From the NCBI RefSeq assembly GCF_000381005.1, contig NZ_KB908387.1:1-64000 (forward strand): 64,000 nt of DNA. The letters run 5' to 3'. Of the stretch, positions 36,295 to 44,678 are shown piece by piece. The notes below the pieces were generated by a model, which saw nothing but the letters and a program-made list of their open reading frames with translations, ran no database searches and was not told where the DNA came from. The DNA is from Selenomonas bovis DSM 23594. GTDB lineage: Bacteria; Bacillota; Negativicutes; Selenomonadales; Selenomonadaceae. The position numbers and the translations under genes were made by a program. The stretch's first letter is position 1. Every line of letters begins with the position of its first letter.

Positions 36295-37833
36295 ATGGCG
36301 TATCTTCTCATGACAGCTGGCATCATGGCGCTCGGGCTCTTTCTCGCCAGTCGGCTCGCGAACGCCTGCGGCTTCCTCGTCAAGGGCAGGGCGCTCGCCC
36401 TCGCGGGGCTCCTCGCCTGCGGCATCGCTGTGGTGCTCCCCATCCTCGCGCCCTTTCTCACGCGCGACTACTATTGGAAGCTCGGCGGCCTCGTCCTCAT
36501 CGCTGCGCTGCTCGTGACGGCGTACAACGCGCGCCTCGTGAAAAAGGATCTGGCAGCGGCCGAGCAGGCCGCTGCGGAAACACCTGCCTCCACAACGCCG
36601 CCGGAGCAGACGCCGGAACAGATGCCAGAGGCCGCGCGGCAGGCAGAAGAACAGGCAGGCGAAGCGCGGCCGGACATACCGACGCCTCCCGCACGGCCAG
36701 CGGCTGCCGCAAACAAGGAAAGCGACAACGCAGCGCCTGCACTGGACGCACCGGCACCGCCGCAGGCTGCGCCCCCCGTGGCGGCTACGGCACCGCCAGC
36801 ACCCGCTCCGGGCCCCGCCCCAGCGGACGCACGCGCAGACACTACCGCAGCGCAAACGCCACAGGAAGAGGCACTGCCCGCGACAGACGCCGCAGCGCAG
36901 CCACCACAGGAAAAGGCACTGCCCGCGACAGACGCCGCAGCGCAGCCGCCACAGGAAACGGCACTGCCCACGACAGACGCCGCAGCGCAGCCGCCACAGG
37001 AAACGGCACTGCCCACGACAGACGCCGCAGCGCAGCCGCCACAGGAAACGGCACTGCCCGCGACAGACGCCGCAGCGCAGCCGCCGCAGGAAACGGCACT
37101 GTCCGCGGCAGAGCCACCACAGGAAGAGGCTGCGTCCACGGCAGACACGGCACGTCAGGCACCACAGGCGGAGGCTCCGCCTGTCCCCATCGCGCCTGCA
37201 ACCTTCATCAAGGAGGACAGCCGTCCTCCGCAGGATGCGGCACCGCCGCCACCCCCCGGGACAGAGGAACACGCTTCCGCGCGCCATGCGCCAGCGGCAC
37301 AGATGCCGGAAGGACACACGCCAGAGAAGCGGCCGCCAGAGACAGCGGCACAGGCATCGGAAAAACACGCGCCGGAGAAACGTCTGACAGAGGACCAGGC
37401 GCCGGAGGCGCCCTGGGCCAAAGACATCGTCGCGCTCACAACGCTTGACGCCTTCCTCGACTACGCCTACGCCGCGCAGCAGCGCGGCGACATCCCGCGC
37501 GCGCTCGCCGCGTACCGCGAGGCGCTCAAGAGATACTCCGGCGATCCCTATGTTCCCTATCTCTTCATCGACCTCGGCAACCTTTGCAAGCAGCAGGCGC
37601 GCTACGCCGACTGCATCGAGGTCTACCGACGGGGCCTCCGGCTCCCCATCATCGCAGAGAACGAAGCCATGGCAGAGGAATTCCGCAAGAACATCCGCTA
37701 CCTGCGCATCGTTTATCATATTTTAGAAAAGCATCAAGCGCTCACGACGCCTTTCGGCAGCATCCCGCAGACCTACCGTGCGGAAATCGAGACTGCCTAC
37801 CAGGCAGCGCAGGCGCAGCATCACGGCAGCTGA
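36295..37833 (+). CDS. Three-TM protein with Pro/Ala tandem repeats and TPR-like C-terminus
   Basis: 512 residues; family not recognised. Residues ~1-25, 34-55 and 62-84 are three transmembrane segments. Residues ~90-370 are a low-complexity region rich in Pro, Ala, Gln and Glu, including five 15-residue repeats (PPQETALPTTDAAAQ type). Residues ~380-475 are helical and TPR-like (FLDYAYAAQQRGDIPRALAA, then YVPYLFIDLGNLCKQQ). The topology suggests a membrane-anchored protein that carries its TPR domain on a long flexible tether. A PRC-barrel gene follows 42 bases later, with a similar Pro/Ala linker, so they probably form an operon. The antisense frame across it is a by-product of composition. 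Confidence 0.8.
   Translation: MAYLLMTAGIMALGLFLASRLANACGFLVKGRALALAGLLACGIAVVLPILAPFLTRDYYWKLGGLVLIAALLVTAYNARLVKKDLAAAEQAAAETPASTTPPEQTPEQMPEAARQAEEQAGEARPDIPTPPARPAAAANKESDNAAPALDAPAPPQAAPPVAATAPPAPAPGPAPADARADTTAAQTPQEEALPATDAAAQPPQEKALPATDAAAQPPQETALPTTDAAAQPPQETALPTTDAAAQPPQETALPATDAAAQPPQETALSAAEPPQEEAASTADTARQAPQAEAPPVPIAPATFIKEDSRPPQDAAPPPPPGTEEHASARHAPAAQMPEGHTPEKRPPETAAQASEKHAPEKRLTEDQAPEAPWAKDIVALTTLDAFLDYAYAAQQRGDIPRALAAYREALKRYSGDPYVPYLFIDLGNLCKQQARYADCIEVYRRGLRLPIIAENEAMAEEFRKNIRYLRIVYHILEKHQALTTPFGSIPQTYRAEIETAYQAAQAQHHGS
36856..37110 (+). repeat. 45-bp in-frame tandem repeat (five full units and a partial one)
   Basis: Units at 36856-36900, 36901-36945, 36946-36990, 36991-37035 and 37036-37080 are nearly identical; the sixth breaks off. 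The unit encodes 15 residues, so copy changes keep the frame. Confidence 0.95.
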
Positions 37834-39356: not shown

Positions 39357-40355
39357 TCACTCGCCGCGTCGGCCGTGGTAGAGGCACCAGGGCTCCTCCG
39401 CCATGTAGTCGCCGCCGTGGTAGCACGCGGCGCGCGCGCGGCAGCCGCCACAGACGCCCTTGTAGCCGCAGCTGCCGCAGCCGCCGCTGTAATCGAGCGT
39501 GCGCAGGCGCTCGAGGACGGGGCTTTTCGCCCAGATCTCATCGAACGGCGTCTCTCGCACGTCGCCGAGCTCCATCTTGAGGTAGGCGCAGGGCTGCACC
39601 TTGCCGCGCGGGCTGATGATGCAGTAGCTGAGGCCCGCGAGACAGCCGCGGTGGAAGCGCGACTTCAGCCCGAGCTGATCGGCGATGCGCAGGAACTGCG
39701 GCGCACAGGTCGGCTTGAGCTCGATGGGGACCTCCTGCTGCTTCTTCATGATGCGCGTCAGGACGTCCTCGTACTGCTCGGCGCGCAGGCTCTCCTCCTC
39801 GATGGTCGCAGCGCGCCCCGTCGGCACGAGGAAGAAAAAATGATGCGCCTTCGCGCCGATCTCCACGGCGAAGTCCGTCATTGCCTCGAGCTCGCCCTCG
39901 TTCCAGTCCATGACCGTCGTGTGGATCTGGAACGGCAGGCCGACCGCCGCGCAGTTCTTCATGCCATCGACCGCGCCCTGCCAGCCGCCCGGGAAGCTGC
40001 GGAACTTGTCGTGCTTCGCCGCGTCGAGCGAGTCGAGCGAGATGCCCATCGCGCGCGCGCCCGCGGCCTTGAGCTTTTCCGCCATCTCGCGCGTGATGAG
40101 CGTGCCGTTCGTGCCGAACACGGGGAAAAGGCCGAGCGACGAGGCATACGACACCAGCTCCAGGATGTCCGGCCGCATGAGCGGCTCACCGCCTGAGAAA
40201 ATCATGATCTTGAAGCCAGCGCGCGCGATCTCCGTCAGGAGCTTCTTCGCCTCCGCCGTCGAGAGCTCTTCCTCCGCCTTGCAGCCCGCGTCGCGGTAGC
40301 AGTGCGCGCAGTACATGTTGCAGGCGTTCGTCACATTCCACGATATGATGTTCAT
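39357..40355 (-). CDS. Radical SAM/SPASM protein, NirJ2-like (AhbD type)
   Basis: 332 residues. The radical SAM cluster is C12-xxx-C16-xx-C19 (ACNMYCAHCY), followed by MIFSGGEPLMRPD. A C-terminal SPASM-type Cys-rich region (GGCGSCGYKGVCGGCRAR) can bind further Fe-S clusters. It resembles NirJ2/AhbD, which in the siroheme-dependent route decarboxylates Fe-coproporphyrin side chains to form heme. It overlaps nirJ1 by ATGA. The other Ahb genes are not in the window, so the pathway is inferred. Confidence 0.8.
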   Translation of the reverse strand: MNIISWNVTNACNMYCAHCYRDAGCKAEEELSTAEAKKLLTEIARAGFKIMIFSGGEPLMRPDILELVSYASSLGLFPVFGTNGTLITREMAEKLKAAGARAMGISLDSLDAAKHDKFRSFPGGWQGAVDGMKNCAAVGLPFQIHTTVMDWNEGELEAMTDFAVEIGAKAHHFFFLVPTGRAATIEEESLRAEQYEDVLTRIMKKQQEVPIELKPTCAPQFLRIADQLGLKSRFHRGCLAGLSYCIISPRGKVQPCAYLKMELGDVRETPFDEIWAKSPVLERLRTLDYSGGCGSCGYKGVCGGCRARAACYHGGDYMAEEPWCLYHGRRGE

Positions 40356-41527
40356 AAGCCGATCTCCTCATCTGTCAGATAGCAGGCCGGATCCGAAGCC
40401 CAGAAGTCTCCCGTGACGGCCTCCGCCCGCGTGCGGAAATTGCCGTTGCAGGCCGAGAGCCATTTGCATTTCGCGCAGCGTCCCGTAAGCAGCGGCTTCC
40501 GGTCCTTGAGTCCCGCCATGATGGGGTTCGTCGTATCCTGCCAGATATCGCCGAACGCGCGCTCGCGCACGTTACCGAACGTGTGGTGCTGCGTGAACTG
40601 GTCGGGATGCACATAGCCCTGCGGATCCACCTCGCCGAACGCGATGCCCGAGCGGTTGCCGCCGTTCATCGCGAGGTATTTCTTAATCTGCGCCGCCGTC
40701 TCCGTCTCGCCGTCCGCGAGCGCCTTGAGGTACATGTAAATGCCGTCGCAGTGGTTGTCCACCGTGAGGATCTCCTTCTCGAGACCGCGCGCCTCGAAGT
40801 CCTTCGTGCGGCGGATGATCGTGTCCATCGCGCGACGCGAGTCCTCGGGGCTCACATCCTGGTCGACCATCGCCTCGCCGCGGCCGCTGTAAACGAGATG
40901 GTAGAAGCAGACGCGATTGATCTGCTCCGCCTCGATGAAATCGAAGATGCGGTCGAGCTCCTGGATGTTGTGGTGGTTGATGGTGAAGCGCAGGCCGACG
41001 CGCTGGCCGACCGCCACGCAGTTCTCGATGCCCTGCATCGCCTTTTCATACGCGCCCGCGACGCCGCGAAACGTATCGTTCACATCGCGCAGGCCGTCGA
41101 GCGAGATGCCGACATAGCCGACGCCGATCTCCTTGATGCGCCGCGCGACCTCGCGCGTGATGAGCGTCCCGTTCGTCGAAAGCGTCGGCCGCACGCCCGC
41201 CGCCGCCGCATACGCCGCAAGCTCGAAGAAATCGGGCCGGATGAGCGGCTCGCCGCCGGAAAAGAGCAGCACGGGCACATGGAACGCCGCGAGATCGTCG
41301 ATGAACTTCTTCGCCTCCGCCGTCGAAAGCTCGTCCTGATACTTCCGCGCGTCGGACTTCATATAGCAATGCATGCACTTGAGGTTGCACGTCTTCGTCG
41401 AATTCCAGACGACGACCGGGCCGACGCCCTCCGCGGCGCCGCTCTTCATGCTGTGCGCGCTCTTCGTATAGCGCAGACTGTCGCCGAAATACTCCCGCGC
41501 GAACAGCAACTTCGTCACACTGATCAT
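40352..41527 (-). CDS. Radical SAM/SPASM protein, NirJ1-like (AhbC type)
   Basis: 391 residues. N-terminal extension with ISVTKLLFAREYFGDSLRYT, cluster C47-xxx-C51-xx-C54 (TCNLKCMHCY), LLFSGGEPLIRPD, and a C-terminal Cys pattern CAKCKWLSACNGN. This fits the NirJ1 group that accompanies NirJ2 in Firmicutes and Deltaproteobacteria with alternative heme synthesis (12,18-didecarboxysiroheme to Fe-coproporphyrin). A TetR gene lies 23 bases upstream in the same operon. Confidence 0.82.
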   Translation of the reverse strand: MISVTKLLFAREYFGDSLRYTKSAHSMKSGAAEGVGPVVVWNSTKTCNLKCMHCYMKSDARKYQDELSTAEAKKFIDDLAAFHVPVLLFSGGEPLIRPDFFELAAYAAAAGVRPTLSTNGTLITREVARRIKEIGVGYVGISLDGLRDVNDTFRGVAGAYEKAMQGIENCVAVGQRVGLRFTINHHNIQELDRIFDFIEAEQINRVCFYHLVYSGRGEAMVDQDVSPEDSRRAMDTIIRRTKDFEARGLEKEILTVDNHCDGIYMYLKALADGETETAAQIKKYLAMNGGNRSGIAFGEVDPQGYVHPDQFTQHHTFGNVRERAFGDIWQDTTNPIMAGLKDRKPLLTGRCAKCKWLSACNGNFRTRAEAVTGDFWASDPACYLTDEEIGL

Positions 41528-41550
41528 AAGCTCTACCTACTCCCTTTCCA

Positions 41551-42180
41551 TCACGCGCGGATGCCGCCCAAAAGCAGCTGCAGCTTCCCCTCGAAATTCT
41601 CGCGGAACGAGAGCCCGAGATGGCTGAACGCCGCCGACTGGAACGCCGCGTGCAGCATCTCCGCGATGAGCGGTGCCGGCACATCGGCGCGCAGCTCTCC
41701 CGATGCCTGCCCCTCCTCGATGATGGCGAGGAAGAGCTCTCGGAACCCCGGCCCATGGCTGTACGGCAAGCAGCTCTCCTGCCCGTGCTTCCCGCTGCCT
41801 TGGGCCTTGCCGTGCACGAGGGCCGCATGACTGCCCGCGAAGAAGAGCGCGAGCACGAACCTGTTCTCATCGAGGAGACGCGCCGTCTCCTGGCAGCCCT
41901 CCGTGAGGCGCACGAGCGCCGGCTTGCCCGCTGCCTTCATCTCATCGAGGAACGACGTCACCTCGCCCATGAGGCCGACAAGCAGGCTCATGAGGATCTC
42001 CTCCTTCGAGGAAAAATAATTGTAGAACGTGCCGACGCCGAGATCCGCGCGCTCCATGATATCGGCAATCGACGCGTCCTTGTAGCCCTGCCGCACGAAC
42101 TCCTGCTTGGCCGCCGTGAGGATTGCCTGCCTCGAGGCAATCTTCTTGCGCTCCCGGCGTCCGAGTTTCTTCTCTTCCAT
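41551..42180 (-). CDS. TetR-family transcriptional regulator
   Basis: 209 residues from ATG 42180, chosen because GAGGAA lies six bases upstream; an ATG nine codons earlier abuts its own AGGA. The helix-turn-helix is in residues ~15-60 (RQAILTAAKQEFVRQGYKDA, then GVGTFYNYFSSKEEI). It heads the nirJ1-nirJ2 operon and probably controls it. An AT-rich 15-base inverted repeat at 42262-42276 is a candidate operator. Confidence 0.9.
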   Translation of the reverse strand: MEEKKLGRRERKKIASRQAILTAAKQEFVRQGYKDASIADIMERADLGVGTFYNYFSSKEEILMSLLVGLMGEVTSFLDEMKAAGKPALVRLTEGCQETARLLDENRFVLALFFAGSHAALVHGKAQGSGKHGQESCLPYSHGPGFRELFLAIIEEGQASGELRADVPAPLIAEMLHAAFQSAAFSHLGLSFRENFEGKLQLLLGGIRA

Positions 42181-42261
42181 CGTAAATTCCTCTTTCTCGT
42201 TTTTCATTCCTGAACCATGTTCATTATTTTACCCCCTTCCGCCGGCTTTTTCTAGTCTTGA

Positions 42262-42349: not shown

Positions 42350-42427
42350 GGCCCAGTAGCTCAGCTGGATTAGAGTATTTGACTACGAATCAAAGGGTCG
42401 GGGGTTCGAATCCCTCCTGGGTCACCA
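42350..42427 (+). tRNA. tRNA-Arg(ACG)
   Basis: Full cloverleaf: acceptor GGCCCAG with CTGGGTC (one G-T), D-arm GCTCAGCTGGATTAGAGT, anticodon stem TTTGA/TCAAA with loop CTACGAA, T-arm GGGGGTTCGAATCCCTC, and an encoded CCA. The anticodon ACG is at 42385-42387; A34 is normally edited to inosine. Confidence 0.97.
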
Positions 42428-42554: not shown

Positions 42555-42598
42555 CGCGAAAAGGGGAGCCATCCACACCGATGGCTCCCCTTTTCGCG
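42555..42598. terminator. 19-bp perfect hairpin between tRNA-Arg and the chemotaxis receptor
   Basis: 42555-42573 pairs with 42580-42598 around CACACC. A4/T4 inside the stem (GCGAAAAGGGG) is the only tract, so it is a terminator-like barrier of either direction rather than a typical one. The gap 42464-42737 holds nothing else except repeat copy D. Confidence 0.65.
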
Positions 42599-42737: not shown

Positions 42738-44678
42738 TTATTTCACGGCTGCCGCCTTGCGAACGACATCGTAGGCCGCATCTTTCGTCTCCACGAAGCC
42801 ATTGATCTTCGCCTCGCGCATGGCACCTGCGCAGGCCGCATCCGTGTCCTTCGTGCGCTCGAACTCCTCGCGCAGGCGGCGGACCAATGCGGGGTCCACC
42901 CCCGGCGCCGCCGCGATGACATCCGTCGGGATCGGCGGCGTGCGGAAGATGATGTCGAGCTGCGCGTCCGCGTGCGCCGCGGCGAACGCCGTCGAGTAGG
43001 TTGCGCCGCCGTCGACAGCACCCTCCTCAACGGCCTTGATGACATTGTTGTGACTGCCGAGAAAGACCGTCGAACCGAAGAAATGCGCCGGATCCTTGCC
43101 CGCCTCGACGAGCGCGGCCTTCGGGTAGACGTAGCCGGACGCGGACTTCTCGTCGACAAAGCCGAACTTCTTGCCCGCGAGATCGTCGAGCGCGGCGAGG
43201 CCGCTGCCCTTTTTCGTGACGATGTAGCCTGTGTAGCTCGTCTGATGGTTGACCTCCGGCGTCACGAGCGGCTGGAGCTTCGCCTTCTCCGCCGCAGAAA
43301 CATAGGCGAACGGCGAGAACCAGCCGACATCCGCGAGGCCATTTTTAAGCGCCTCGCCGAGCGCCTCGTAGTCCGCGACGATGATCGTGCGCGCCTTCTT
43401 CCCCGCGCGCGCGGCGACGTCCTTGAGGATGGGGACGTAAGTTTTCTTGATGGTCTCCGGCGCCGTGAACGGATTGACCGCGAAGACGATCTCATCCGGC
43501 TGTTTGAACTTCATAGCCGCGCGCTGCACCTCGTCCGCCACATGCAGCAGAGACTTCGCATAGCCGTGGATTTCCTCGAGGTTCCGGCGCTGCCCCTGGA
43601 TGCTCGACGTCGCCTCCTGCGTATTGCCCGCGATGGAAACGGTCGCCTGACCGACATGTTCGACGACGCGCGCCATCTGATCTGTCGTCTCGCGCTGGCT
43701 GTCCGACATCTGCGTGAGCTCATCCACGATCTGCTCAAGATGGCTGACGTTACGCGAGAGCCCCTGCATCGCGGCGGCGGAATCGTGCGCCTGCCCCTCG
43801 ACAGCGCCGAGCTGCTCGCTGCCTGCACGCATCCTCTCCGTGACGGCCGCCGTCTTCGCCGTGATCTCCTGGACGATCTCCTCGATCTCCTGCGTCGTCT
43901 CGTCACTCTCGCTTGCGAGCTTGCCGACCTCACCCGCGACGACGGCGAAGCCGCGCCCGTGCTCGCCAGCACGCGCCGCTTCGATGGAGGCGTTGAGTGC
44001 AAGCAGATTCGTCTGCGCGGCGATACCGCGGATCTTGCCGACGAACGCCTTGATTTTCTCCGAGGCCGCGTTGAGTTCGTCAATCTCCTCGACGCCCTGC
44101 TGCACGGAGGACGCGACCGTCTGGATGTCCTGGCTGACCTGCGCGATGACCTGCTGGCAGCGGCCCGCGATCTCCGTCGAGCTCTTGCATTCCGCGAGGC
44201 TCGAGGTCGCAACGTCGGAGACTTTGCTCGCCGAGGCCGCGATCTCCTCCACACCGGCGGATGCTTCCTCGAGATTGCTTGCGTTCGTCTCGCTCTCCTC
44301 GCTGATGCCGGCCGCGAGCTTCTCGACCTGCGCGATGACCGCGCGATACTGGTCGATGCCCCAGATGAGCTGCTGGGAAGCAAATGCCATTTCCTCCGCG
44401 ATGCTGAGGAAATCGACGTCCGATGGCTGCGTGCGCGCTGCGGGCAGCACTTTTTGCGCTTCCGCCCTCACCGGCGCCTCGGCCACGGATGACGCCGCAG
44501 GCAGCGTCTCCTCGCGGCGTCCCAGGCATGCGGTAGCGGCGGCCGCCGCGAGCACTCCCGCGAGCACAGCGGCACTGACGGCGCTCCCTGGCACACCGAT
44601 GCTGCCAGACAGCGCGGCGCCGACCCCCGCGCCAATGGCAGCGCCTGCCGTGGAACATCCGATAATCTTCTCTTTCAT
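42738..44678 (-). CDS. Methyl-accepting chemotaxis protein with C-terminal PhnD-like binding domain
   Basis: 646 residues from ATG 44678 (GAGGTGG six bases upstream). A Gly/Ala-rich hydrophobic segment at ~12-52 could form one membrane span or a hairpin. There is no periplasmic sensor domain. Residues ~90-390 are a receptor signalling coiled coil with the hairpin tip (about 215-248, [20 protein letters not shown]). Residues ~396-646 are a phosphate/phosphonate-type substrate-binding domain (PhnD-like: [20 protein letters not shown], then [14 protein letters not shown]). The binding domain therefore follows the signalling tip's return helix and should be on the same, cytoplasmic side. Ligand unknown. 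Flagellar genes at 56761-61566 show that chemotaxis is relevant. Confidence 0.85.

Follow-up and report, generated by a model that had tools for sequence, protein, structure and literature searches.

We analysed a 64,000-nucleotide stretch of the Selenomonas bovis DSM 23594 genome (hereafter the window), in which one reverse-strand gene encodes a fusion of an MCP signalling module to a PhnD-type solute-binding domain (Table 1). The start codon is preceded by GAGGTGG, and its position is backed by relatives. Pfam placed MCPsignal (PF00015) at residues 186-344 (E 2.4e-35; 122.4 bits against a gathering threshold of 34.6), which makes the protein a member of the MCP family, and Phosphonate-bd (PF12974) at residues 399-636, covering positions 1-242 of the 242 in the profile (E 3.2e-59). 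The receptor also passed the NCBIfam model TIGR01098 for phosphate/phosphite/phosphonate substrate-binding proteins (160.6; cut-off 112.05), and it fell short of the PhnD equivalog TIGR03431 (145.9 vs 261.1). Pfam gave no Cache match in the receptor, so the periplasmic sCache domain of sCache_PC3 receptors is absent.

The neighbouring genes in the window (radical SAM, TetR, SEC-C, amidase and CstA) give no functional clue, and ABC permease or ATPase genes are not adjacent. A tRNA-Arg gene (ACG; 42350-42427, forward strand) converges on the receptor gene, with an inverted repeat between the two. A TetR-type regulator precedes a pair of neighbouring radical SAM proteins, of which one has a SPASM domain (39357-42207, reverse strand), and the set likely forms a small peptide-modification or cofactor operon. 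Further along, a TPR protein (36295-37833, forward strand) carries a long proline/alanine-rich repeat region with units like PPQETALPTTDAAAQ. The host genome encodes both CheA (two copies) and CheW, together with 15 further MCPs. It also has a PEP mutase above cut-off (contig C5, 4689-5537) and lacks C-P lyase; phosphonate biosynthesis is possible in this rumen Selenomonas.

Table 1. Features of the receptor gene and its downstream flank, in window coordinates
Feature	Position	Strand	Basis or conservation
MCP-PhnD fusion receptor gene, 646 aa	42738..44678	-	Begins with ATG at 44678; coordinates include the stop
Two-helix membrane hairpin, residues 2-53	44520..44675	-	AlphaFold2, hydropathy, positive-inside charges; predicted N-in/C-in
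Disordered linker, residues 54-86	44421..44519	-	pLDDT <50
N-terminal arm of signalling coiled coil, residues 90-236	43971..44411	-	AlphaFold2
Two adjacent methylation-consensus sites, residues 133-149	44232..44282	-	Pattern match
Signalling tip, residues about 216-255	43914..44033	-	Invariant columns in 21 relatives; MCPsignal match
C-terminal coiled-coil arm, residues 238-389	43512..43967	-	AlphaFold2; continues straight into sensor
PhnD/PtxB-type solute-binding domain, residues 396-643	42750..43493	-	Pfam, AlphaFold2, Foldseek
Phosph(on)ate-binding S512-A513-S514 (PtxB S130-T131-S132)	43137..43145	-	S512 and S514 72/72; A513 69/72
H543 (PtxB H160, EcPhnD H157)	43050..43052	-	72/72
T563, cap partner (EcPhnD E177)	42990..42992	-	E in 61/72 relatives; T in the window's genus
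D586, cap residue (EcPhnD D205; PtxB Y208)	42921..42923	-	D in 71/72
Perfect 15-bp inverted repeat between A and T runs, putative bidirectional terminator	42559..42594	.	Read from sequence; downstream of receptor gene

A full-length AlphaFold2 model built on a 72-sequence alignment (mean pLDDT 84) begins with helices 2-27 and 29-53, followed by the disordered linker, two antiparallel helices (90-236 and 238-389) that form the long hairpin expected of an MCP, and the binding domain, an alpha/beta fold. Modelled alone, this last domain reaches a mean pLDDT of 92.6. Foldseek returned ArrX, HtxB, PtxB and GpxB, then MCP cytoplasmic domains, the highest TM-scores being those to the open form of PtxB; the GpxB structure 9lf9 also matches the receptor family in sequence (E 1e-15). 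A preliminary description of this DNA had proposed a complete PhnD-like domain C-terminal to the signalling hairpin and no periplasmic domain, and both points are borne out by the full-length Pfam match and the model. Its short membrane segment does exist, as a two-helix hairpin rather than a single segment. Its placement of the sensor after the signalling tip holds for the order of the sequence but not in space: the hairpin doubles back on itself, so the sensor is predicted at its base close to the membrane, at the far end from the tip, where it should adjoin a conserved segment (Q102/Q103/W106) at the start of the N-terminal arm. The methylation sites in Table 1, and a third, looser match, were found by pattern using the generally known consensus.

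On which side of the membrane does the binding domain lie? Hydropathy peaks at residues 5 and 34, and after residue 53 no 19-residue window scores above 0.97; with nothing hydrophobic beyond this point, the C-terminal domain cannot be carried across the membrane. Among the 54 relatives with a membrane hairpin, lysine and arginine average 2.1 in the N-terminal segment, 0.3 in the loop and 2.3 after TM2, a charge pattern that reads as both ends inside. The TM segment is missing altogether from 14 closed-frame relatives that have the sensor domain, and from one more locus (L019). Together these lines of evidence strongly argue that the binding domain is cytoplasmic, in agreement with the preliminary description, and the receptor resembles known cytoplasmic chemoreceptors in having no extracytoplasmic sensor and in carrying its sensor on the CheA side. 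An extracytoplasmic domain that senses an outside ligand would suit the normal location of the solute-binding fold and the lipoprotein-like signals with which standalone relatives of the same class start, but the receptor shows neither the export signal nor the extracytoplasmic location expected of a PhnD-type solute-binding protein. The MCP hairpin, moreover, must be cytoplasmic since it has to reach CheA and CheW, with no hydrophobic stretch following it. We therefore rejected the extracytoplasmic arrangement on hydropathy, charge and the TM-less members, and give it practically no chance of being correct.

The fused domain was found in 21 of 100 related genomes, each time in one open frame of about 600-690 residues. 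A set of 80 loci from named genomes spans Bacillota, Synergistota and Spirochaetota (Selenomonadaceae, Sporomusaceae, Clostridium, Lachnospiraceae, Thermotaleaceae, Acetomicrobium and Spirochaetaceae), and every locus not interrupted by a contig end is a fusion, including one (L067) without the tip. Since domain order and frame are kept in dozens of independent contigs, the fusion is neither chance nor an assembly artefact, and the architecture is confirmed as real. The distance from tip to sensor is 166 residues in 66 of the 67 sequences with a findable tip motif, a near-fixed spacing that would be expected if coiled-coil register matters for signalling. A quick tree groups the fused binding domains in a single clade that excludes the standalone proteins, with the caveat that just 12 of the latter were included and that the outgroup branches are long. 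Elsewhere in the window genome PF12974 gave only three marginal matches (27-33 bits), two of which look from their starts like lipoprotein solute-binding proteins of other kinds. A remnant of a phosphonate transporter was rejected as an explanation for the domain, given the separate clade and the lack of any other full-strength PF12974 match in the genome. Both halves of the protein are known families and their combination is visible in routine annotation; the open-access library searched yielded no characterised receptor of MCP-PhnD architecture, an absence that is itself weak evidence. We take the receptor to be a cytoplasmic-sensing chemoreceptor, anchored in the membrane, with a captured solute-binding protein as its sensor.

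Several members of the family depart from this layout. L067, from a Sporomusaceae MAG, encodes 534 residues with membrane hairpin and sensor, the end of the signalling hairpin having been lost roughly symmetrically; the same MAG has an intact copy (L059), and L067 may represent a decoy, a decaying gene copy or an error of assembly. Six Lachnospiraceae/Eubacterium loci (L106, L108-L111 and L113) are without a recognised membrane hairpin. Four of these (L106, L108, L111 and L113) carry an altered tip, ITAAHAGEAG, which may weaken or alter CheA coupling.

Pocket residues were read from an alignment with E. coli PhnD and PtxB, in which the numbering matches the published residues exactly (PMC5700983), and their conservation was counted over 72 sequences. 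The oxygen-coordinating set of PhnD-type proteins (Y437, Y482, S512, S514 and H543) is intact, with Y482 in 72/72 sequences and Y437 in 71/72. The preliminary description had named loss of these residues in an alignment as a result that would count against it, and no such loss is seen: they are kept at 71-72 of 72. Preservation of the oxyanion pocket makes it likely that the ligand is internal and contains phosphorus, as had been suggested. The same residues supply the phosphate-head contacts of GpxB (Tyr, Ser-x-Ser and His, here Y482, S512-A-S514 and H543), a protein that binds glycerol-1- and glycerol-3-phosphate at about 1-2 uM (PMC12718374). The cap is different. The Tyr208/Asp22 pair that caps phosphite in PtxB is Asp586/Phe404 in the receptor, F404 standing at the position of PtxB Asp22 and PhnD Thr14, and the phosphite put forward earlier as a ligand was accordingly rejected. 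GpxB holds the glycerol tail with Arg223 and Thr247, which are equated with PhnD E177 and D205 (PMC12718374), and here too the receptor differs, having T563 and D586. With its cap altered in this way, the domain is expected to take a ligand that has a phosphate or phosphonate head and a tail larger than that of phosphite.

Unplanned clustering of neighbouring genes, with identities assigned by profile searches, brought out a link to glycerol metabolism. Genes for glpK/A/B/C/F/P or dhaK surround 19 of the 80 loci, with glpK within about 6 kb at 15; the remaining 61 have no glp neighbour. The linked loci belong to Sporomusaceae, Clostridiaceae, Natronincolaceae, Lachnospiraceae, Tepidanaerobacteraceae and Thermotaleaceae, and explaining the linkage label takes 7 changes on the tree; the association thus turns up repeatedly, in distinct lineages whose gene orders differ. 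Pelosinus neighbours include GlpK, GlpA, GlpB and GlpC, and in Pelosinus and Sporomusa the receptor gene has glpKABC on one side and, on the other, apparent pyruvate kinase, gap and pgk genes. Clostridium neighbours comprise a MIP channel and a glycerol-3-phosphate responsive antiterminator (PF04309), a further neighbour is a glycerol-3-phosphate-oxidase-like enzyme with DUF1667, and a Tepidanaerobacter relative (L101) has DhaK, DhaL (Dak1/Dak2) and an EIIA-man (DhaM-like) protein. This context points to glycerol-3-phosphate or dihydroxyacetone phosphate; the thiamin-type compounds proposed in the preliminary description found no support. As a control, we found no non-fusion MCP within 6 kb of glpK and one at 7.6 kb among about 150 of 194 MCP matches listed in four complete genomes, which gives a background rate only, as these genomes were chosen for their glp-linked fusions.

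We then compared gene content across the 100 related genomes. GlpK scored above cut-off in all 21 fusion genomes and in 46 of the 79 others (p 1e-4), and GlpC in 20/21 and 31/79, respectively (p 3e-6), these species-level values being inflated because related genomes are not independent; at genus level the association gave p 0.010 for GlpK among CheA-positive genera and p 0.003 for GlpC. GlpC also lies at most 3.4 kb from the fusion in 8 of the 21 genomes. The window receptor gene itself is not near glp genes, as it lies on contig C9 and the two glpK genes and glpC are clustered on contig C15; most Selenomonadaceae copies of the fusion are likewise unlinked to glp.

From glp linkage, co-occurrence and the GpxB precedent we infer that the receptor is probably a cytosolic sensor of glycerol-3-phosphate (or dihydroxyacetone phosphate) that serves glycerol taxis. 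For the broader proposition, that a widespread and unrecognised class of chemoreceptors reads cytosolic glycerol-3-phosphate (or dihydroxyacetone phosphate) through a captured PhnD-type domain, we put the chances at about even. Glycerol would enter the cell and be converted by GlpK to sn-glycerol-3-phosphate, and the cytosolic Venus-flytrap domain would close on a small phosphate ester, most likely this one. Closure would move the base of the hairpin, and the movement would presumably pass along the fixed-length coiled coil to the tip and alter CheA activity, with the methylation sites permitting adaptation. Swimming would thereby be biased by the rate of glycerol uptake and phosphorylation, and the use of glycerol as a growth substrate suggests attraction as the sign of the response. 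Dihydroxyacetone phosphate is the closest alternative ligand, as GlpABC and DhaKLM both yield it. Conservation of the pocket suggests that the window protein shares its ligand with the glp-linked relatives, an argument weakened by Thr563.

The same cytoplasmic receptor might respond instead to 3-phosphoglycerate, glyceraldehyde-3-phosphate or phosphoenolpyruvate and so report general glycolytic flux. The glycolytic genes adjoining the Pelosinus and Sporomusa copies would fit this reading, as would DhaKLM in Tepidanaerobacter, which favours dihydroxyacetone phosphate over glycerol-3-phosphate, and the binding of several three-carbon phosphates by sCache_PC3 receptors (PMC12395807). We nevertheless consider it unlikely, for it is glpK, glpC and the glycerol-3-phosphate responsive antiterminator, not glycolysis genes, that recur as partners from lineage to lineage. 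The glp association would be left unexplained if the domain sensed cytoplasmic inorganic phosphate, phosphite or another small oxyanion. Every oxygen-coordinating residue of PtxB is kept, with Ala replacing Thr131, and the best structural matches include the oxyanion binders ArrX, PtxB and HtxB, but the phosphite-specific tyrosine cap is replaced, and cytosolic phosphate, normally millimolar and tightly held, is a poor cue; we regard an oxyanion as very unlikely.

The ligand of the cytoplasmic receptor might also be an intermediate of phosphonate metabolism or an aminophosphonate, 2-aminoethylphosphonate for example. In EcPhnD, D205 and E177 hold the amine of 2-aminoethylphosphonate (PMC5700983), and the family has this very Glu/Asp pair (D586, with E563 in 61/72 relatives) where GpxB grips its glycerol tail, which speaks against glycerol-3-phosphate; in the window protein the pair is Thr/Asp. 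The PEP mutase of the window genome also means that it may make phosphonates. However, Thr replaces Glu in the window's genus and Phe occupies the position of EcPhnD T14, no phosphonate genes were recognised among the family neighbours examined, the C-P lyase gene product PhnJ occurs in 0/21 fusion genomes, and PEP mutase is without association (3/21 fusion genomes vs 15/79 others). The phosphonate suggested in the preliminary description is weakened by these counts, and we hold this ligand class to be decidedly unlikely.

If correct, this proposal would give metabolism-dependent glycerol taxis of anaerobes a molecular footing and provide a case of a solute-binding-protein fold that senses a metabolite inside the cell. 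The metabolism-based taxis known so far usually follows redox or energy state by indirect means; with a receptor for one named intracellular metabolite, a single purified domain would suffice to put metabolism-dependent chemotaxis to the test.

The receptor shares its whole sensor fold and the phosph(on)ate-coordinating residues with PhnD, PtxB, HtxB and GpxB (TC 3.A.1.9, PF12974). Unlike these proteins, its domain is cytoplasmic, fused to an MCP and without signal peptide or adjacent ABC transporter, and the cap is Asp/Phe/(Glu or Thr) in the receptor family, Tyr/Asp in PtxB, Asp/Thr/Glu in PhnD and Arg/Thr in GpxB. PacP of Pectobacterium (sCache_PC3) has the ligand class proposed here, phosphorylated C3 compounds with glycerol-3-phosphate preferred, but senses it outside through a periplasmic sCache domain, an unrelated fold on the opposite side of the membrane (PMC12395807); the cytosolic receptor would count as a separate invention. 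Helicobacter pylori TlpD likewise has no periplasmic domain and carries its sensor after the signalling hairpin, although that sensor is a CZB domain rather than a solute-binding-protein fold, and most members of the present family have a short membrane hairpin. As in E. coli MBP-Tar and similar pairs, a binding-protein fold feeds an MCP; in those pairs a separate periplasmic protein docks onto the receptor, whereas here the fold is covalently attached, lies in the cytoplasm and occupies the other end of the chain.
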